The notes under the pieces were generated by a model. The model was not told where the DNA came from. It did no database searches and saw only the letters and a program-made list of their open reading frames with translations. Of a stretch of 35,886 nucleotides of DNA, positions 14,223-33,430 are shown in pieces (the stretch's first letter is position 1; the number at the start of each line of letters is the position of its first letter). The DNA is from Patescibacteria group bacterium. Its GTDB lineage: Bacteria; Patescibacteriota; UBA1384; UBA12157; JAENIV01. The position numbers were made by a program, and so were the translations under genes. The stretch spans positions 1 through 35,886 of the forward strand of contig JAMCZU010000011.1 of NCBI GenBank assembly GCA_023485405.1, read 5' to 3'.

Positions 14223-15575
14223 TTAATTTTTATTTTTGAGGTCATTGTAAGCTTCAACAATATCTTCGTAAAGAATATCGCACATATCACGACTAAAATT
14301 TTCGCGAACAACAATTCTCATGATCACAATTTCTTCCGCATTAGCGGGCAGTGAATAGGCGGGCATAATCCAGCCTTTTTCACGTAATTTATCAGTTAGT
14401 TCGTAAAGAGTAAAATTCTCATTATTTTTTAATTTTACGGCTACGACTGGTAAAAGTTGGGTTGGATTAAGTGATTCAAAATATTCAGTTTTAAGCAGTT
14501 TCTCGGCTAAATATTTAGCATTTTCGGTGATGTTACTCATAATTCTGGTGTAACCCGCTTTGCCAAGACGGAGGAAATTGTAATATTGACCAATAACAGT
14601 GGCTCCACCACGAGAAAAATTCAAAGTATAAGTTGGCATTTTACCACCTAAATAATTAACCGTAAAAACAATATCCTTAGGTACATCTTTTTCATCGCGA
14701 AAAATAAGCCAGCCAAGGCCAGGATAAACAAGACCGTATTTATGACCAGAAACATTAATTGATCTAACTTGCTCGAGGCGAAAATCCCATTTTAAATCTG
14801 GATAAATAAAAGGAGCAATAAATCCACCGCTAGCTGCATCAACATGAATCGGAATATCCCAACCTTTTTCTTGTTTAATTTTTAAAAGTAAATCGTTTAT
14901 TTCCTCGATTGGATCGTGTTGACCGGTAAAAGTTGTCCCTAAAATAGTTCCCACGCAAATCGTATTTTCATCAACTCTTTTTTCGACTTCGGAGACAGAA
15001 AGAATAAAACGGTCTTTTTCCATTGGCACAATTCTTGGTTCAACATCGAAATAACGAGCAAATTTATCCCAGCAGATATGAACATCGTTACCAAAAACAA
15101 TATTTGGCTTGTCGTAGGGTTTGTTTTCAGTTTTACGTTTATTTTTCCAAGTCCATTTATGAGCTAAAAGTCCAAGCATAATTGCTTCTGAAGAACCAAT
15201 GGTAGCGGTACCGACAGAATCGCAATCGTCAGGGGCGTTGAAGAGGCGGGCCATCATATTAACTAACCGTTCGTGAATAATTTCTGTTTGCGGATATTCA
15301 TCATGATCAATAAAATTTTTATTATTATTCTCGGCAATTAGTTTTTCTGCTTCCGGTTCCATCCAAGTAGTGCAAAAACTAGCAAGGTTTAGAGCAGGAT
15401 TACCATCCATATTAAGTTCGTCGTGAACTAATTGGTAAGCAGCATTGGCGGGCATTTCATTTTCTGGGATTTCATATTTCGGGATTGGTTTACTAAAATA
15501 TCTTGTGCTATAAGTACTCGAATGTCCTTTTTGAGCATCTTCCAATTCGCTGATTTTTTTCTTTTTATGAAGCAT
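14223..15575 (-). CDS. gadB: Glutamate decarboxylase
   Basis: A PLP enzyme converting glutamate to GABA and CO2 while using up a proton, which relieves acid stress in the cytosol. The 450 residues contain the family landmarks: [42 protein letters not shown] with the PLP Asp, and [15 protein letters not shown] with the PLP Lys, then [15 protein letters not shown]. The E. coli enzyme has a C-terminal His465 used in pH-dependent self-inhibition; this one ends in NDLKNKN, with no such His. AAGGAGG precedes ATG 15575. The gadC-like antiporter lies 18 bp upstream, so the two form an operon. Confidence 0.95.
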
Positions 15576-16997: not shown

Positions 16998-17038
16998 TTT
17001 ACCCTCCTTGTTTTTAAAAAATAAAAACTACTAACTTT

Positions 17039-17107
17039 AATATATCACATTTTTTCTGATATAATTAATTCAACAGAATTAATTTCCGCGTAGATTGGCT
17101 AATCTAC
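17039..17107. promoter_or_regulatory. Divergent promoter region with two palindromes between gadC and the amidotransferase-like gene
   Basis: Plus strand: TATAAT at 17060-17065 (poor -35). Minus strand: TATATT at 17044-17039 with a weak -35 near 17063-17068. A perfect 9-bp palindrome AATTAATTC-AACA-GAATTAATT (17063-17084) overlaps the plus -10 and the minus -35, the position of an operator. A second palindrome GTAGATT-GGCT-AATCTAC (17090-17107) falls in the plus-strand leader, before GGAGGG (17121-17126). No regulator gene is nearby. Confidence 0.5.
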
Positions 17108-17130
17108 CATAATCAAAGACGGAGGGAATT

Positions 17131-18654
17131 TTGATTATTCTATATATTTTAATTATCATTATTTTATCTTTATTGGTTCTCTATTTGGTTTATTTACACT
17201 ATAAAAATAAAATTCAGCACGAACTTGTGCCGCCAAAATTAACTAATAATCCGAGCTTCGACGTAATTTTAACAGAAACGACACCTTTGCTATCTTTTTT
17301 TAATGCCAAAGGGGGAACAAAAATTCGTCGTTATGAAGTGCAACTTGATAAATCAAAGAATTTTGACACTTCTGATTTAATGGTTTTTGAAAATTTACCG
17401 GAAAATGGGGAATTTGTGACCGATTTAAAAATAAAAGAAGATCAAGCATTAACTGACAAAAGTCAGTATTATTGGCGAGTCAGGACTATTAGCCCTTTTG
17501 GTATAAAAAGCAAATGGGAAGTTTCCCGATTTTTTGTGGATACAACCTCTGACGACCAATTTATGAATCTTACCCGTGCAAAAATAGAAAAAATTGAAGC
17601 CTCCGCCGGCTATAATGCCAAAAATATTATTGATTTAGATGACCCAGGTCTAGTCACTTTCTGGCAAAGTCCGCCGCCAGGTCAAAGTCAACATTGGTTA
17701 AAATTTGATCTTGGCAGTGTCCAAGAAATTTCTCGTATTTGGATTTTATCAAATCCTAATGAACCCGATGGTTGGCTCAAAAGTTTTGTTTTGCAATCAA
17801 GTATTAATGGTCAAGTTTGGGACGATATTACTGAAACAAAAATCGTAAATAATGATACTTTTAGGAATATAATTGATTTTAAGAAAGTTACGGCTAGATT
17901 TTTTCGACTGCTAATTAAAGAATTCGTCGGTTATGCTGCTCAAATAAACGAAATTATTTTATATAGCCCTGGTCAACCACCAATACCTCATATTCCTGAA
18001 AGCGATTATATCTTAATTGTTGGCAACGAACATAACGGCTTTACTTTTACCGATTTAGCTAAACATATTGAAAGTTTAAGTTTGGGCTTAAAGACGGTGA
18101 CGATTCCGTACTTTGAAGCCTCCATGGAAGTTCTGGAGAGACTGCCGAAGAAGCCGGTAGCAATTGTGCTTAGTGGTAACAATGCCGATTATCCCAATTT
18201 GCCAATGTTTGAACACAATGGCGAATTTGAAATTATTCGTCAGTCGAACATTCCAATTTTAGGTATTTGCGCTGGACATCAATTTTTAGCGATGGCTTAC
18301 GGTTACTCGCGAGGGAGAAGTATGGGTTGGTCTGATATCTCGGCAATGGAGCCACAAACAAGGAGAGCTAAAATTAAAATCTTAGAACAAGATCCGATTT
18401 TTGAAGGAGTTAAAAATGATTTTATTGCGCCCGAAATTCACAGTTGGGCGGTAGTGGAACCCTCTGAAGAATTTAAAATCATTGCCAAATCCACCTATGT
18501 TCAGGCTCAAAAAAGCACTCAACGATTCATTTATGGTGTTCAGTTCCATGGTGAAATTAATGTGTCTTATAATGAAGGAAAGTTAGTGATTGAAAATTTT
18601 TTAAAAATGGCCAAGCATTTTAGTAAGAGGGATAAAGATGTCACGGACAGTTAA
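17131..18654 (+). CDS. Membrane-anchored fusion: Fn3-like, F5/8C (discoidin) and class I glutamine amidotransferase domains
   Basis: A 507-residue protein. Residues 2-25 form one membrane helix. About 45-145 read as an Fn3-like module (YYWRVRTISPFGIKSKW). About 150-285 read as an F5/8 type C domain (WLKFDLGSVQEISRIWILS, FFRLLIKEFVGYAAQINEI), usually a sugar-binding module. About 295-500 is a class I amidotransferase domain: ILGICAGHQFLAMAYG with nucleophile C380, and YGVQFHGEI with H473 and E475 completing a Cys-His-Glu triad. This domain normally frees ammonia from glutamine inside the cell; joining it to binding modules and an anchor is odd. Basic residues after the helix (YKNK) leave the side of the membrane unclear. 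TTG 17131 follows GGAGGG. It ends 17 bases inside the next, broken gene. Confidence 0.75.
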   Translation: MIILYILIIIILSLLVLYLVYLHYKNKIQHELVPPKLTNNPSFDVILTETTPLLSFFNAKGGTKIRRYEVQLDKSKNFDTSDLMVFENLPENGEFVTDLKIKEDQALTDKSQYYWRVRTISPFGIKSKWEVSRFFVDTTSDDQFMNLTRAKIEKIEASAGYNAKNIIDLDDPGLVTFWQSPPPGQSQHWLKFDLGSVQEISRIWILSNPNEPDGWLKSFVLQSSINGQVWDDITETKIVNNDTFRNIIDFKKVTARFFRLLIKEFVGYAAQINEIILYSPGQPPIPHIPESDYILIVGNEHNGFTFTDLAKHIESLSLGLKTVTIPYFEASMEVLERLPKKPVAIVLSGNNADYPNLPMFEHNGEFEIIRQSNIPILGICAGHQFLAMAYGYSRGRSMGWSDISAMEPQTRRAKIKILEQDPIFEGVKNDFIAPEIHSWAVVEPSEEFKIIAKSTYVQAQKSTQRFIYGVQFHGEINVSYNEGKLVIENFLKMAKHFSKRDKDVTDS

Positions 18655-20304: not shown

Positions 20305-20318
20305 AAGGAGAATTTTTG

Positions 20319-21041
20319 ATGAAAAAAATTTCAGGGATTATTCTAGGATTTTTGGTTTTTTGTGGCTTTATCTTTTTTCCGTTTCAAATCAGTGCTAAAC
20401 AAGCTAAGGTTGAAGATAAAGATAATTTGCGCATTTTGGTTCATTATCAAGCAATCCCCAAAAAATGCAATATTACTCGTAACGATCAGGTTTCGAATTT
20501 TGGTTGGGGTGGTTGGAAATTACAAAGCGGCATTACTAATTATCGTATTAACTACAGCAGTAAGCCGTCATCACTTTCTAATAGTAAGGTTAAAACAGCG
20601 ATTGAAAAAGGATTTGTCGCTTTGCAAGGCGCCGGTGGCGGCATTTTGTTTCATTATGCGGGCGATTCTAGTAAAACTAATGCTAGTAATGATGGTGAAA
20701 ACACTATTTTATGGCGAACCCTACCCTCAGGAATTGTGGGCTTAACTTATATTTGGACTGACGGCAACGGACGCTTAGCTGACGCAGACACAGTTTTTAA
20801 TAAAAGATATTCTTGGAATTATACTTCTTATAATGGGAGTAATGATTGTGGTGGAGCAGCTTCTAGTTTTGACTTGCAAGATATTGCGACTCATGAATTT
20901 GGTCATTGGATGGGCTTAGGTGACTTATATGATGCTAATTCCAAAGACTTAACAATGTATGGTTATGCCGCGCGAGGAGAACTTAAAAAAGACACTTTAG
21001 GCTTAGGCGATATTAATGGTATTCGAGCGGTTTGGCCATAG
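20319..21041 (+). CDS. Secreted metzincin-type zinc metalloprotease (matrixin/snapalysin-like)
   Basis: A 240-residue secreted protease. A signal peptide (about 1-26) precedes a domain with ATHEFGHWMGLGDLYD near residue 192. This is HExxHxxGxxD: two zinc His, the catalytic Glu, and Asp as third ligand, as in snapalysins, rather than the more common His. LTMYGYAARGE supplies the Met-turn. The C-terminus LGLGDINGIRAVWP matches the final helix of matrixins. Two cysteines (KKCN and NDCGG) could form a disulfide. ATG 20319 is preferred over TTG 20316 because AAAAGGAG is then 8 bases upstream. The substrate is unknown; surface protein processing is plausible. Confidence 0.82.
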   Translation: MKKISGIILGFLVFCGFIFFPFQISAKQAKVEDKDNLRILVHYQAIPKKCNITRNDQVSNFGWGGWKLQSGITNYRINYSSKPSSLSNSKVKTAIEKGFVALQGAGGGILFHYAGDSSKTNASNDGENTILWRTLPSGIVGLTYIWTDGNGRLADADTVFNKRYSWNYTSYNGSNDCGGAASSFDLQDIATHEFGHWMGLGDLYDANSKDLTMYGYAARGELKKDTLGLGDINGIRAVWP

Positions 21042-26336: not shown

Positions 26337-26371
26337 ACCCCGACGTTAAATTTAGCGCCGGGGTCTTTTTT
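26337..26371 (+). terminator. Intrinsic terminator of the two-gene unit
   Basis: ACCCCG (26337-26342) pairs with CGGGGT (26359-26364), with partial pairing inside the loop, followed by C and TTTTTT (26366-26371). It is oriented for the plus-strand unit; the convergent gene ends at 26370. Confidence 0.85.
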
Positions 26372-29273
26372 ATGGTTTTTTATTTCGAAGAACAAAAAAT
26401 ATAATTAGCTCGGCGGCGAAAAGCAAGGCAATAATAATAGTTACAATTGTTTTCCAATTAAGGCCATGACTTTCCTGAACATTAGTTGGATTGGTTGATA
26501 CAGCTGTGTTTGGTTCGTTACTGATTGTTTCCGATGGTGTAGTAAAAGGGGTGGTAGTAGTGGATACAGAAGGGACGGTTGAAGAAGAACTGGGAGTAGA
26601 GTTAGGAGAAAAAATTTCTGGTATAGGTGTTTTGAAATCTGTGGATTCTAAAGATGGGTTAGTCGTTGTCTCGTCAGTGGCAGTAGTAGTTCCAGTTGGG
26701 GTAGGGGTGGGAGTAGTAGTGCTAACAGCGCCGGGTGTATTTAACTTTGGATTAGAAGAAGGATTATTTTTTGTATCTGGAATGCCTTTTGTTGAAGAAG
26801 TATTAAATAAAATCCGACCGGTGTGAGGCAGAAGCGTTAAAGTTCCCGGGTTAATGGTAGTTCCTGTTTTATCAAGCATACTGTTGGTAAGAATAAAATT
26901 TCTGGGCTGATCAGGTGAACCGTTGGTTATAACTAACCCGTTGATAAATTTGCGTGATTGCAGAGATTTATCGGGATAATTTGAATCAACGATTCGATTT
27001 TCTAAAGGTGCTCCGAGTTTTTTAGTATCGGAAAAATCTATGCCAAGATTATAATCACCATCACCCACTCCTTTTTTCGCCGGATTGCCATTTTCAATAC
27101 TAAGCGAGCTAAATTCACTTTCTCCTAATAAGTATGTAGTTAATGCAAAATTAATCGTACCATTTTCACCATTAGCTGGGGCATTAAGGTCTGGTCTATC
27201 ATAATAAATCACATTTTGCATTAATTTCTTTTGATCCTGCTTTAAAACACCTTGGTTCCAAGATATTACTTGATCCATATCATCCAAAGAATTAAGCCAC
27301 GATGGCATATTAAATGTATTGCTGTCTTTCCAATTAAGACCAATAAATGCTGCTTCATTAAAAAAAGTATCAGGAGTGATTCCACGGTTTAACTTTTGAT
27401 AAAGATTTCTGTTGAAATCCGACCACACTCCATCTACTCCAGCAGTGGCGGTGGCAGGATCCCAGGTTGGGTTTAAATATGACTCGCCGGGCCAAGTATT
27501 TAAATGACGTTCGGAACCATTGATAATATAGCCAATTCCATTTTTTCTAAATTCAGAAGCAATATATGTGCTAAAAAATTGAGCAACGTTCGGTGACCGG
27601 CTAAAAGCCATCATGTTATTGCTTTTACCGGTTGAAGGGTCAGTATATATCCCGTCAAAATTCATTTCCGGGGCCTCATCAACAAAAACTCCATCTACTT
27701 TATATTTTTGAATACGAGAAATTACATTACTGGCCCAGGTTTCTTTGTAAGTCGGTGCGTCCAAATTTGTCATATATTCAGTGGGGTAATCAGGATGAAA
27801 GACATAATTTAATTTATTTGAAAGATCTGGTGGACCCAAGTTGTTATATTTTAATTCTTCCTTTCGACCATCTTTTAACGGTACTGTGTTGGCCGGAAAT
27901 GTCTTAAACCAATCAGGATGATTATCTAGGGCATCAACAAAATCAATTGGACTATTTTTGAAAAATGAATGATCCTCATACCGATTAGTGGTTCTATCAG
28001 AGAAAAAAACTCTTTCATCCGTGATGTTAGCAGACTCATAAATATAAAATTTCATATTCGGATTGACTAATTTCATTGCTGGTATAAAGTTGTAGTCATA
28101 ATCAGATATTGACAAATAATCATTTTGTTCGGCTGCCCAATAAAAATCATTTTTCATACAACCAAAGCAGTAATAATTAGCATGAGTTAAGATGTCTCTA
28201 TTTCTTGGCGCCGGAATTTGCCAAGTGATTGGATTATCAGAAGAATTCGTTAGATAAAGATGTGCATTATCAATTTGAAATCCCGGTTCATAACCAGTTA
28301 AATTACCATTTACTGTAATTTTAAGGCTAAAACTGAAAGCAAAATTACTCACAAAATTACTAGGTATGACAATTTCCTGTCGAAGGGGGGAACTTAGTGG
28401 CACATAATTCCAAATTTTTTGGTTGTTGCTAGATGAATCAAGGGCTGTTAATTGGTAATACATATCATAAGAGACACTTGTTCCCAAGGGAAGATTATTG
28501 TTATTTATAAAGTTTAACTGGTCTATTGTAAGGATTAATTTATTTCCGGAAGTCAAAAGAGCCGGATTGCTGCCAATCGGAAGATTCTTTCCGATTTGAG
28601 CGTAAGCTGCTGTTCCATTGTAATCTTTAATACCAAAATACTGAGCGTTAGAGCCATCAACCCCGCCGCCTTTAATATTTTTAGCTATAATATTTTTAGA
28701 AAGATCAATTTTAGGATCATAGATACCTGTCCAGCCAGACGCAACCTCATTGTTTGGGCTTGCCCAACTGTATATGCTTTTGCCTATTCCAGACTCAAGA
28801 GTTAGCCAGGAGGAAGCAACAGGATTTTCGAAATTTCCCTGGCCCATTAAAAAATCAACCGGCTCGTCTCTGGTCGGGCTATTAGTATTAGAATAATCTG
28901 AACCACCTAAAGCATTGAACGCCCGTATTCGATAATAATAACGTTTTCCTACTCCAATGCTGTCAGTGTAGGTTGTGGTATTAGGATTTAATGTGACAAT
29001 TTCTTGAAAATCATGTTCAAAATCTGGGGTTCTTTCTACTTTAAATCCAGTTTCGTCGCTGGCATTATCAACCCATCGGAGAAATATTTGAGTTTTATCA
29101 CTATTGTCAGTGGCCACTAAATTGGTGGGTGCAGTCGGAGTAAATTGGCCTTCACCGTGAAAAACGAATGTTCTTAAAACTAAAATTATAGCTACTACAA
29201 AAATTAGTGTTATAGCAATCGAAACACGCTGCTTTTGAGTTAGCTTAGCTAGCCTTTTAATTATTTTCTTCAT
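26370..29273 (-). CDS. Giant surface glycoside-hydrolase-like protein with Fn3 module and two membrane anchors
   Basis: A 967-residue protein. An N-terminal membrane helix (about 15-35) is followed by a fibronectin type III module (about 43-130; APTNLVATDNSDKTQIFLRW, RYYYRIRAFN). A beta-rich region (about 140-345) could bind carbohydrate. About 355-830 looks like a TIM-barrel hydrolase of the hypothetical GHL15 kind: KVDGVFVDEAPEMNFDGIY, NGIGYIINGSERHLN and GVDGVWSDFNRNL place acidic residues at strand ends. A Thr/Pro/Ser linker (TPTPTPTGTTTATDE) follows, then a C-terminal helix and KNKKP. Anchoring at both ends suggests a domain held close to the cell surface. The substrate is unknown. It lies 35 bp downstream of the other hydrolase gene. 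Confidence 0.72.
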   Translation of the reverse strand: MKKIIKRLAKLTQKQRVSIAITLIFVVAIILVLRTFVFHGEGQFTPTAPTNLVATDNSDKTQIFLRWVDNASDETGFKVERTPDFEHDFQEIVTLNPNTTTYTDSIGVGKRYYYRIRAFNALGGSDYSNTNSPTRDEPVDFLMGQGNFENPVASSWLTLESGIGKSIYSWASPNNEVASGWTGIYDPKIDLSKNIIAKNIKGGGVDGSNAQYFGIKDYNGTAAYAQIGKNLPIGSNPALLTSGNKLILTIDQLNFINNNNLPLGTSVSYDMYYQLTALDSSSNNQKIWNYVPLSSPLRQEIVIPSNFVSNFAFSFSLKITVNGNLTGYEPGFQIDNAHLYLTNSSDNPITWQIPAPRNRDILTHANYYCFGCMKNDFYWAAEQNDYLSISDYDYNFIPAMKLVNPNMKFYIYESANITDERVFFSDRTTNRYEDHSFFKNSPIDFVDALDNHPDWFKTFPANTVPLKDGRKEELKYNNLGPPDLSNKLNYVFHPDYPTEYMTNLDAPTYKETWASNVISRIQKYKVDGVFVDEAPEMNFDGIYTDPSTGKSNNMMAFSRSPNVAQFFSTYIASEFRKNGIGYIINGSERHLNTWPGESYLNPTWDPATATAGVDGVWSDFNRNLYQKLNRGITPDTFFNEAAFIGLNWKDSNTFNMPSWLNSLDDMDQVISWNQGVLKQDQKKLMQNVIYYDRPDLNAPANGENGTINFALTTYLLGESEFSSLSIENGNPAKKGVGDGDYNLGIDFSDTKKLGAPLENRIVDSNYPDKSLQSRKFINGLVITNGSPDQPRNFILTNSMLDKTGTTINPGTLTLLPHTGRILFNTSSTKGIPDTKNNPSSNPKLNTPGAVSTTTPTPTPTGTTTATDETTTNPSLESTDFKTPIPEIFSPNSTPSSSSTVPSVSTTTTPFTTPSETISNEPNTAVSTNPTNVQESHGLNWKTIVTIIIALLFAAELIIFFVLRNKKP

Positions 29274-29308
29274 TTTCGTTGTTTTTTTTCATCAAGATAC
29301 TTGTGAGG

Positions 29309-32300
29309 CTATTTTAGGTTTTGATTTTGGTTTTTCTTTTGAAAGATTAGTTTTAATTTATCAATTACTTGCTTGACTTTTACCTTAGTTTTTTTGACGG
29401 CTAGTTTAGTCTTGTCAACAACCTTTTTAGTTGCCAATTTAGTTTTGTTAACAATTTTTTTGATAACTTTGCTGGCCGTGCCTTTAACGCTTTTAATGAC
29501 AGAACTTGTGCCAGAGCTAGTAACGGTGGTTGCTGATGGGACTGGGGTTGACGAAGAAACAGCGCTTGGTGTTGGCGAAGTTGGTGTAGAAGTAGAAGCA
29601 GTAGGAGTAGGGGTGAGTGGCGCAGTTGTGGTGGGAGTAGGAGTAATTAAGGGAGATGGCGTAGGAGTGGATGGTATTTCGACGACAGAAATTTTTACTG
29701 CTGTGTCTGAGGCGAGATTGGCTACTTGGAAAGTAAGATTACCTTGACTATCTGAAGCGGCTTGAGTTGTGCCAGTGATTTGTTTGGTTGGGTCTGATTC
29801 AGCCGTGTTCCACCACTCTAAATTAAAATTTTTACTAGATTGCATATCGGGGATGGTAATTGTGCCAGAGATGGGCGAAGGAACGTTGTTATTGATCAAA
29901 CTTTTCCAACTATATGGTTTATTGTCAATCCAAAGATGAGCACGATCTGATTTGCCATTGGTAATTTCTTTTTGACCCCAAGCGCGAAGATCAAAACTGG
30001 AAGTTTGGGCGGCGCTATCTTGGTATTTGCCATTATTTAGCGGGATGTCTTTCATAAAGTTTAGATAGGCTTGACCAAGAGGCAAAGCAGTGTTAACGAT
30101 TGAAGCTTGATTTTTTATTCCTGAAAAATCATACCAAAAAGCAATTAAGCCATAATGGTTAACTTGTCCCCATAAAAACTTTTTATACCATGAATAAGTT
30201 GGGTCAAGATTATTATTAATTTCTGCATTTTCTCCCACATTCTGATCATAAAAATTCAAATTTGAATTTACTACTGGTGCGTGGACAACTCTTTGAGCTG
30301 GCTCGCCCCTCATATATCCTTCGTAATAACTAGTCATGGCTGTATCTTCTTCCATAACACTTTCCTCAAAGTTGCCATTTAAAAGTATAACTGGTTTTTG
30401 AGCGGTTTCATCGTAAAGAGTGAAATCGTCAAAATACATATTTCCCGAAAAATTGGAAAGATTAATAGAAAGATCTTCGTATGGCATGTCTGGAAGAGAA
30501 GGAGTGTTACCGGCAAATTCTCTATTAATATTCGGATAAGTAGCAGCATAAGTAGGAAAATTTGGAACAATAAACTGCAAACCTCGTTGCTGCCAACTGT
30601 CAGGTGGAGTTGAACTTGCTATATCATTGCCAGAAAGTGGGCCGTCAGTAGAAGTGGTGAGCTGATTGGAGGTGATGGCATTTCGGATATCATAGACTAG
30701 AGGAATTGTTTTTATAGTTACAGGCCAACGCATATCACGGGTATAGCTGGCATTGGCTAAAACAGATATTGTTGAGGAAAGGTTAGCGCCTGATTGTTTG
30801 TTCCACCAGCGCAAGGTATAAATGTGATCTGGGATCCCAGTAAAGGTAGACATTCTCAGAGATGTATTGCCAGCTGTTGCTTTGTTAGTGTGTAAACATT
30901 TACTGTTATTTCTCCCACAGCCAGAATCAACTGTCCATGGGGAACTGGGATCATTTTGTATATCCCAGCCAGGAGTGTTACTCACGCCTGACATTGTTCC
31001 CATTGCTTCATGAAAGTTGGCGTAAGCAACATCGGGATAAAGTCCGTTTGGTTTGTTGATTTCTGACCAAGCGATACCCTGGCCGTTAATCATGTCGTGA
31101 TGATCAAAGTTTACTGTTACCATATGCTGATTAGGGTCATTTTGTTTAAACTGCACAGCCATATCGTTGGTTTGTTCCATCGCTCCTGTTGAAACATAGC
31201 TTTCATTACAAAGTTCAAATGAATGAATACTGGTAGAGTATCCCCAGCGGGCAGCGGTATAACGCCAAAAATAATTTAAATAAGTACGGTTAGCCCCATA
31301 AGATTTACCGAAAGGATTACCGTTAAATCGCATTGGTACAGCTGATCCATCATCATTTATTGAATTCCAAAGTCCATCTTCCTTGGCATTTAAGGCAATA
31401 TCTAAATAAACGCCATTAACTCGGGCTGCTTCAACTTGAGCATCAGCAACAGCCGAGGTGTATTGATTATAATAATTGTAAAGATTGGGATTAGAAATTG
31501 GCATTAATTCTGGGCCAAGAGTGCCGTCACCGTTTACTTCTTTAACTGAAATGTCGTTAAATAAAAGTGTTCCACCTGTAACACCATCGTGTCCAACGGT
31601 AAGCCATGGTAAACTGTCCGTACCAGCAGTAGCGGTGAAAGTGCCTTTGACTTGAGTCCAATTATATGTGCCGTTATTTTGAGTTAAATCAAGACTAGTA
31701 CCAGCATAAGTTGCGCTGGCTTGAACATCATTAGCGCCGGGATCAATATACAATTTACCGCATTTATTCCCACTGCAATTTGGGTCAAGAGTAATATTGG
31801 CAGTTTTAAACCAAACACTGATTTGGTATTTTACACTTGGTTTGATCGGTAGTTTTTGATTAAAATATGTGGTATTCGTGTCAAAAGCAGGTTTAAAGAC
31901 AAATAAATCTTTATTCCATGAAGGAGGCATATTTGGGTCTATATAGTCCTTAAGAGGCGTAATAGTATCACTGTGGTTACTCCAATAGACATCATTATGA
32001 CCATTATTGTTGGACATCCCAAAAACGGCTAACCAACCATTTGCTCCACTCCACCAGGTGCGTTGAATATTCATTTTATCTTTTAGATTAGCATAATATG
32101 AATTAGCACTATTAATAGTAGCATTACTCAAAAGTTTACCACTTTGGTTATCGTAAACATTTAAGTTTTCTGTCCCGACCAAAGGCAAATATTTGCCATC
32201 GGAAGTTTCAAAATAACGCGAATCATTTTTGGCGACTTGGGCGAAGCCATGATTTTGCGAAGAAGTAGAGATAAGTGAGGTCGCAGGATAGTAAATAGTT

Positions 32301-33430
32301 TGACCAGTGACATCAACAACTTTTAAGCGGTAATACCAAGCACCTTCTTTAGTCGGGGCAAAACGAACTTTCCATTGATCAGATACTGGTACAATATGAT
32401 CACCCCAATCGCCAACATTATTTGGTTTAAACTGTTGATAATTTTTGTAGTAAAATCCGGGTTGATTAAGGTATTGACCAGATTGAATATTGGCAGAAGA
32501 AGAAGCCTTGGTGGCACTGCTCCAATTCGGAGTTTGTGAACCATCTGTAAGATAAAGAAATTGACCGTCTACAGAAACGCCCACGCCTTTTTCTGGGACT
32601 GGGTCAGCGGGGTTAGTTAACCAATACTCACTGGCATGACTACCATTTGGAGCTGTGTCAGCTGCAGTATAGCCCAAATCTCTCCACCAAGGATCAGGAC
32701 TGTTCACACCATGACTATCACTGTCGGGGCCACCGTCCCCATTTGCTCCGCTTGAAATAATGCATTCATAAACTTCTTTACGGGGATCATTATCAAGATA
32801 AACTACTGGACCAAGACCAGACGTTGCGGCCCAATATGTATCAGTTGTTTTGGATACATCTGCTTTGCTTGTAAAAGAGACTGGCGAATTATGAATAGCT
32901 TTATAAGTAGTGCCGTTGTAAGTGACACGCTGACTTGTGTTGTAAGATACACTGCTATTCCAAGGTGAAGTTTGGTCGGCAATTGGATTTGGGTCGTATG
33001 GCCAGTAAGGATTAATGTAACTGCGGCCAGAATCAGTCCAAAGGGTGGTAGCTGTGTCAGGTGAGGTAGTATTATTTTCTTTGGTAATATCCTGGGTAGC
33101 AATGTAAATTTTATTATTGTACTTAACGTTAATATTAGCTTTGTAGGCTATATCTTTTGTCCATTCATCGGCTAAAGCATCGTATTTAGCATTTTGATTA
33201 GTAAAATCTCGATTTTTATACCAATTAAGATCAAAAGTGAGCTCAAATTTATCATATTTAGGTATCTGAGTACCATTATTGGTTAAATTAGCAACTTGGG
33301 CTTCGCCATTATTTAGTTCTTCGGCTTTGAAGATATATTTTGAATAATTTAAAAATAAAAAAAGACCAGCAACTAGTAGAGCTGAAGCAATAACTATTTT
33401 TTGGATACGTTTTCTCTTATTTACAATCAA
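29309..33430 (-). CDS. Giant surface glycoside hydrolase with DUF5060-like, CBM5/12-like and inserted CBM modules and a Lys-rich tail
   Basis: A 1373-residue protein. N-terminal membrane helix (about 10-28). From 60, KFELTFDLNWYKNRD reads as the start of a DUF5060-like sandwich, ending near WKVRFAPTKEGAWYYRLKV. Between lie two CBM5/12-like modules (WTKDIAYKANINVKYNNKIY, about 90-131; WNSSVSYNTSQRVTYNGTTY, about 157-202). A TIM-barrel region follows (GFAQVAKNDSRYFETSDGKY). A beta-sandwich CBM appears inserted (YQISVWFKTANITL to LLFNDISVKE), then HSFELCNESY with a likely acid/base Glu. After a TPTP linker, the last 75 residues are Lys-rich (VVDKTKLAVKKTKVKVKQVI). Start is TTG 33430 behind GGAGGGG. 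It probably cleaves a chitin- or cellulose-like polymer; the substrate is a guess. Confidence 0.75.
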   Translation of the reverse strand: MIVNKRKRIQKIVIASALLVAGLFLFLNYSKYIFKAEELNNGEAQVANLTNNGTQIPKYDKFELTFDLNWYKNRDFTNQNAKYDALADEWTKDIAYKANINVKYNNKIYIATQDITKENNTTSPDTATTLWTDSGRSYINPYWPYDPNPIADQTSPWNSSVSYNTSQRVTYNGTTYKAIHNSPVSFTSKADVSKTTDTYWAATSGLGPVVYLDNDPRKEVYECIISSGANGDGGPDSDSHGVNSPDPWWRDLGYTAADTAPNGSHASEYWLTNPADPVPEKGVGVSVDGQFLYLTDGSQTPNWSSATKASSSANIQSGQYLNQPGFYYKNYQQFKPNNVGDWGDHIVPVSDQWKVRFAPTKEGAWYYRLKVVDVTGQTIYYPATSLISTSSQNHGFAQVAKNDSRYFETSDGKYLPLVGTENLNVYDNQSGKLLSNATINSANSYYANLKDKMNIQRTWWSGANGWLAVFGMSNNNGHNDVYWSNHSDTITPLKDYIDPNMPPSWNKDLFVFKPAFDTNTTYFNQKLPIKPSVKYQISVWFKTANITLDPNCSGNKCGKLYIDPGANDVQASATYAGTSLDLTQNNGTYNWTQVKGTFTATAGTDSLPWLTVGHDGVTGGTLLFNDISVKEVNGDGTLGPELMPISNPNLYNYYNQYTSAVADAQVEAARVNGVYLDIALNAKEDGLWNSINDDGSAVPMRFNGNPFGKSYGANRTYLNYFWRYTAARWGYSTSIHSFELCNESYVSTGAMEQTNDMAVQFKQNDPNQHMVTVNFDHHDMINGQGIAWSEINKPNGLYPDVAYANFHEAMGTMSGVSNTPGWDIQNDPSSPWTVDSGCGRNNSKCLHTNKATAGNTSLRMSTFTGIPDHIYTLRWWNKQSGANLSSTISVLANASYTRDMRWPVTIKTIPLVYDIRNAITSNQLTTSTDGPLSGNDIASSTPPDSWQQRGLQFIVPNFPTYAATYPNINREFAGNTPSLPDMPYEDLSINLSNFSGNMYFDDFTLYDETAQKPVILLNGNFEESVMEEDTAMTSYYEGYMRGEPAQRVVHAPVVNSNLNFYDQNVGENAEINNNLDPTYSWYKKFLWGQVNHYGLIAFWYDFSGIKNQASIVNTALPLGQAYLNFMKDIPLNNGKYQDSAAQTSSFDLRAWGQKEITNGKSDRAHLWIDNKPYSWKSLINNNVPSPISGTITIPDMQSSKNFNLEWWNTAESDPTKQITGTTQAASDSQGNLTFQVANLASDTAVKISVVEIPSTPTPSPLITPTPTTTAPLTPTPTASTSTPTSPTPSAVSSSTPVPSATTVTSSGTSSVIKSVKGTASKVIKKIVNKTKLATKKVVDKTKLAVKKTKVKVKQVIDKLKLIFQKKNQNQNLK

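Follow-up and report, generated by a model that had tools for sequence, protein, structure and literature searches.

A discoidin–glutamine amidotransferase fusion linked to gadC and gadB in Patescibacteria, a candidate glutaminase

Results and Discussion

The stretch of DNA analyzed here (the window, 35,886 nucleotides from a Patescibacteria group bacterium) contains a gene in which an F5/8 type C (F5/8C, discoidin) domain is joined to a class I glutamine amidotransferase (GATase) domain, and this gene is found together with those for the antiporter GadC and the glutamate decarboxylase GadB. The link between the fusion and gadBC is strong and well supported. From sequence and genome context we infer the substrate, activity and physiological role of the protein, as well as the role of its F5/8C domain, and we lean slightly toward a cytoplasm-facing glutaminase that would feed GadB and GadC and replace the glutaminase missing from these genomes. 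If true, a non-orthologous enzyme would have replaced glutaminase in the best-known bacterial acid-resistance circuit, a class I amidotransferase would be working with no synthase at its side, and an F5/8C domain would have a function inside the cell. The hosts have small genomes and are hard to culture, and little is known of how they handle pH and manage their amino acids.

Domain structure of the fusion protein

The features of the fusion gene and its neighbors are collected in Table 1. Both claimed domains are borne out: the match to PF00754 reaches 59.4 bits (curated Pfam cut-off 28.2) and that to PF00117 70.4 bits (cut-off 22.8; orthologues 64–73 bits), and both families are also above cut-off in the two other full-length orthologues. 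Of the modules named in the original prediction, the F5/8C domain stands at this level and the Fn3-like stretch stays below threshold. No solved structure spanning F5/8C and GATase together was matched by sequence, and no published account of such a fusion was found in the openly licensed literature. The leader of the divergent gadC gene, GGAGGGTAAA-TTG, has the same GGAGGG, 4 nt and TTG arrangement as that of the fusion gene, and these matching leaders support both TTG start codons.

Table 1. Coordinates of the fusion gene, its domains and its neighbors in the window
Feature	Position	Strand	Basis
Discoidin-GATase fusion gene, 507 aa, TTG start	17131..18654	+	ORF; Pfam F5_F8_type_C and GATase above cut-off; orthologues
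Shine-Dalgarno GGAGGG, TTG start 4 nt downstream	17121..17126	+	sequence
Predicted N-terminal transmembrane helix, ~residues 2-23; predicted N-out/C-in	17134..17199	+	hydropathy; alignment: unconserved in orthologues
Ig/Fn3-like stretch, residues 48-132, sub-threshold	17272..17526	+	PF25788 E 0.011; 6.5e-5 in G136 orthologue
F5/8 type C domain (discoidin, CBM32-like), residues 155-264	17593..17922	+	PF00754 E 4.9e-16
Class I glutamine amidotransferase domain, residues 317-491	18079..18603	+	PF00117 E 2.1e-19; model and PDB fold match
Nucleophile Cys380 codon (GICAGHQ)	18268..18270	+	sequence; Cys invariant
His473-Gly-Glu475 of catalytic triad	18547..18555	+	sequence; His and Glu invariant
gadC-type glutamate(glutamine)/GABA antiporter, 467 aa	15594..16997	-	TIGR03813 E 5.7e-156, below curated cut-off; tail comparison
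gadB, glutamate decarboxylase	14223..15575	-	TIGR01788 662.9 bits vs cut-off 380.4
Divergent fusion/gadC spacer, 133 bp	16998..17130	.	sequence; L003 spacer similar, 142 bp, divergent

A pattern scan of genome contigs identified a close relative (L003), 67% identical to the window copy. Among 380 genomes of the phylum (small genomes, 0.5–1.4 Mb), full-length orthologues were found in G163, whose sequence is that of L003 (L003/L007), and in G136 (L008/L022); G163 and G136 are 58% identical to each other and the window copy is 54% identical to G136. All three full-length proteins share the Ig/Fn3-like stretch, the F5/8C and GATase domains and the catalytic triad. G176 contains only an 80-aa C-terminal fragment of the fusion, at a contig end. 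At this end of contig C173 (L009/L024) the fusion C-terminus runs into a fragment resembling tryptophanyl-tRNA synthetase, a junction that may be an assembly chimera. Matches in G115, G128 and G141 were discarded, their neighbors identifying them as TrpG/PabA-type amidotransferases of the chorismate pathway unrelated to the fusion. No relatives were found in the viral contigs searched, and the plasmids gave GATase-only matches with coverage of at most 42%.

The fusion occurs with gadC and gadB

Counting the G176 fragment, the fusion is present in 4 of the 380 genomes. Genes similar to gadC (E ≤ 1e-80) appear in exactly these four and gadB (above its cut-off) in five, the four carriers and G257, which strengthens the gad linkage claimed originally. 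Under random placement such coincidences have probabilities of 1.2e-9 (fusion and gadC) and 5.8e-9 (fusion and gadB), values that ignore relatedness. In the class of the window the fusion is restricted to one of 55 genomes. The other carriers, G136, G163 and G176, come from a single different class sampled by seven genomes, the remaining four being devoid of it, and here the presence of the fusion and of the gad genes matches in 3/3 carriers vs 0/4 of the others. The independent origins of the pairing are thus few, perhaps two. No published work on gadBC in this bacterial group was found in the openly licensed literature.

Each of the three full-length loci has a gadC-type gene next to the fusion. 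The two genes are divergent in the window and in G163 (L003), and in G136 the fusion gene comes last in a row after three tandem gadC-type genes, with a gap of 5 nt. These three paralogues (L022:2652-6998) have diverged to 45–59% identity. Since gadB lies beside the pair only in the window (it is on other contigs in G136 and G163), the conserved physical partner of the fusion is gadC. In G176 gadC is found apart from the fusion fragment. The antiporters have TIGR03813 (glutamine/GABA antiporter GadC) as their best match (E 1.5e-154 to 9.1e-162); at 510–540 bits they fall short of its strict equivalog threshold of 650 bits. Compared with E. coli GadC, those of the window, L003, L022 and L055 stop about 40 aa short and have no C-terminal plug, and therefore their pH gating may differ.

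Within the spacer between gadC and the fusion, a promoter-like TTAATA-17-TATAAT for the fusion gene is located at 17037-17065. Alignment of the window and L003 spacers revealed no convincing shared regulatory motif, and a 20-nt inverted repeat in the spacer turned out to be merely the two mirrored leaders.

The linkage might instead represent one recent mobile gene cassette, with a role of the fusion unrelated to GadB and GadC. The small number of independent lineages would fit this, as would the window copy being closer to G163 than G163 is to G136. However, the gadC partner is constant while the gene orders differ, the link has been kept over a long divergence (54–67% identity), and in G136 gadB still co-occurs from a different contig; we consider this the least probable of the readings. 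The window copy may have been acquired laterally; gadB, gadC and the fusion have GC and GC3 values within the range of the window and show no compositional sign of recent transfer.

Catalytic triad, pocket and fold

The triad C380, H473 and E475 had been placed exactly and is complete. It is invariant across the three full-length orthologues and the paralogous GuaA, TrpG, HisH and CarA domains, and the domain order of the three copies is preserved as well. In contrast, two motifs of the pocket depart from those of synthase-bound GATases: the usual GGP (GGPxS in these enzymes) is SGNNAD (GNNAD) in the fusion, and the GEYG-type motif is replaced by SMGWSDIS. Because of these alterations the fusion may have a substrate other than plain glutamine, possibly another gamma-glutamyl compound.

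A model of the GATase domain, built from eleven GATase sequences (GuaA and TrpG among them), reached a pLDDT of 80 and a pTM of 0.85. Its best PDB matches were the GATase subunits of GMP synthases (E 3e-16), followed by the glutaminase subunits of aminodeoxychorismate and anthranilate synthases, with PuuD lower in the list, a ranking that depends on the choice of input alignment since GuaA and TrpG were included. Phmmer and hmmsearch agree on the GMP-synthase-type ranking without this alignment. The full-length model from three sequences (pLDDT 52) was too poor for use. The domain thus shares the triad with the GATase of GuaA, its best sequence-profile and fold match, and differs from it in the altered GGP and GEYG motifs and the additional Ig/Fn3-like and F5/8C modules. 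GMP synthase itself can be discarded, given an equivalog score of 86.8 bits against a cut-off of 198 and the missing ATP pyrophosphatase domain, which is neither fused to the protein nor encoded next to it.

The departures from glutamine-specific GATases in the pocket would also fit a gamma-glutamyl hydrolase like PuuD, splitting gamma-glutamyl-GABA or other gamma-glutamyl compounds to supply GABA or glutamate to GadB and GadC. PuuD (Peptidase C26) shares with the fusion its fold, the logic of a stand-alone hydrolase and a GABA-related context; the Peptidase_C26 family scores 35.5 (cut-off 20.5) and the fold search also returned PuuD 6vtv (TMq 0.75). This match is the weaker one, though, the PF00117 score being twice as high and the GMP synthase subunits ranking best by both sequence and fold. 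Moreover, a glutamine-synthetase-type ligase (PuuA fold) was not found in three of the four genomes, and we regard a PuuD-like function as unlikely.

Membrane helix and topology

The window copy does carry the membrane helix predicted originally (hydropathy over 19 residues as high as 3.3), but the other two full-length orthologues do not, and the alignment revealed neither helix nor signal peptide in them. Both begin just past the helix position, with MPRHEITPPNL and MSMIDITPPSL, and in L003 a TAA stop in the same frame, 12 nt before the ATG, rules out a longer form. In the window copy K25, K27 and H30 follow the helix and no charged residue precedes it, which by the positive-inside rule predicts an N-out/C-in orientation. 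Most likely, then, the catalytic part of all three proteins would be cytoplasmic.

An ammonia-releasing enzyme outside the cell, membrane-anchored or secreted, had been an attractive idea, since F5/8C and Ig/Fn3 modules are frequent in exported proteins and the window copy carries a helix. Such a surface enzyme does not agree with orthologues that start directly at the Ig/Fn3-like stretch (two of the three full-length proteins), with the stop upstream of L003 or with the charges flanking the helix, and we have dropped it as very unlikely. A clear PF00754 domain is shared with CBM32/F5/8 type C proteins (NagJ, NagH modules, neuropilin), but here it sits on a predicted cytoplasmic protein and is joined to an amidotransferase.

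A candidate glutaminase for the GadC/GadB cycle

E. coli, Brucella and Lactobacillus reuteri each pair GadC with a glutaminase that belongs to PF04960. This canonical family was detected in none of the 380 genomes, while control genomes were positive. The comparison with YbaS/GlsA made originally gains indirect support from this absence, and it is the absence, together with the strong gadBC link, that suggests the role of replacement glutaminase. A glutaminase partner of GadC is documented in those three organisms (PMC5695133, PMC6250119).

The other glutamine enzymes of the carriers are few. Besides the fusion, the class I GATases of the window's genome (G000) are an ORF of 554 aa, PyrG-like by its size, and a HisH-type protein beside hisF, so the fusion seems not to fill a biosynthetic slot. 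Glutamine synthetase-type proteins (PF00120) were not found in G000, G163 and G176 (the latter two incomplete) and among the four carriers are present in G136 only. Since none was found in G000, glutamine probably comes from outside.

Class I GATase subunits are often active only with their synthase partner, and no acceptor synthase domain, fused or adjacent, is present in any of the three full-length loci, which weakens the glutaminase reading. An alternative is a subunit that hands ammonia to an acceptor enzyme, or that becomes active only when this partner docks on the F5/8C domain. The nearest relatives are indeed subunits of GMP, anthranilate and aminodeoxychorismate synthases. Nevertheless, the constant neighbor at these synthase-free loci is an antiporter and the GuaA score is far from its cut-off (86.8 vs 198); this alternative appears to us quite unlikely.

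As a glutaminase, the protein would work as follows. Glutamine would enter through GadC and be split by the Cys-His-Glu domain (Cys380) into glutamate and ammonia, the latter taking up a proton. GadB would decarboxylate the glutamate to GABA, consuming a second proton, and GadC would export GABA (or glutamate) in exchange for the next glutamine. The fusion would stand in for the serine-type glutaminase (YbaS/GlsA). Its Ig/Fn3-like and F5/8C domains would probably serve as a scaffold or a docking/regulatory module; the helix of the window copy would hold the enzyme at the cytoplasmic face of the membrane, close to GadC. We can go further and imagine, much more tentatively, that a GMP-synthase-like GATase was recruited in a lineage without canonical glutaminase, made independent of its synthase by being fused to F5/8C, and docked to GadC by this domain or (in one lineage) by the helix, physically coupling import, deamidation and decarboxylation in an acid or energy cycle; we find this detailed scenario rather doubtful.

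The closest known system is AR2_Q (GadC and YbaS/GlsA/Gls3, with GadB), in which gadB, the antiporter and a glutamine-hydrolysing enzyme are likewise encoded together (cf. the Brucella operon, PMC5695133). Like it, the system described here has gadC nearby (adjacent in 3/3 loci) and a glutamate decarboxylase (in 4/4 genomes). Unlike it, the system has as its putative glutaminase a class I amidotransferase with a Cys-His-Glu triad and a fused F5/8C domain, in place of a serine-type PF04960 enzyme; GadC lacks the E. coli plug, and any acid phenotype would be a prediction from the genes. In the best reading, what is new with respect to the known cycle is a non-orthologous glutaminase in a glutaminase-dependent GadC/GadB cycle.

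Acid and pH context

HdeD is a member of the acid fitness island of E. coli. Genes for a DUF308 (HdeD-type) protein and TMEM175 are paired near gadB in G163 (L025:1356-2601) and G176 (L028:945-2280), which points to acid or pH handling, and inspection of G257 revealed a DUF308-like ORF near its gadB. The acid-resistance operon of Brucella is gadB-gadC-glsA-hdeA (PMC5695133).

In G176 a gadC-type gene is directly followed by a heliorhodopsin gene (L055:1968-4227; PF18761, E 5e-103). A heliorhodopsin has been reported to bind glutamine synthetase (PMC9529153), and a tie to glutamine/GABA exchange may exist.

Other genes of the window

Directly downstream of the fusion, an ATG at 18638 overlaps its end and opens a gene that extends to 19164 on the + strand. 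This reading frame encodes a signal/TM segment (MSRTVKIVLIIALVVLLGGG...) and then meets a stop; the -1 frame resumes at KKPLYLTEFGIYAG and continues to 19164. The junction of the frames, CCAAAAAAC, contains a slippery-like A AAA AAC. The gene (no Pfam match) could be either a decayed glycosidase-like gene, the result of an assembly indel or a case of -1 frameshifting. On the - strand, 26370-33430 contains a pair of unusually long ORFs, of 967 and 1373 aa, with weak glycoside-hydrolase (GHL15) and CBM5/12 matches. Finally, a Matrixin-like M10 metallopeptidase (20316-21041, + strand, E 2.1e-6) has the zinc site HEFGHWMGLGD and an N-terminal hydrophobic segment.
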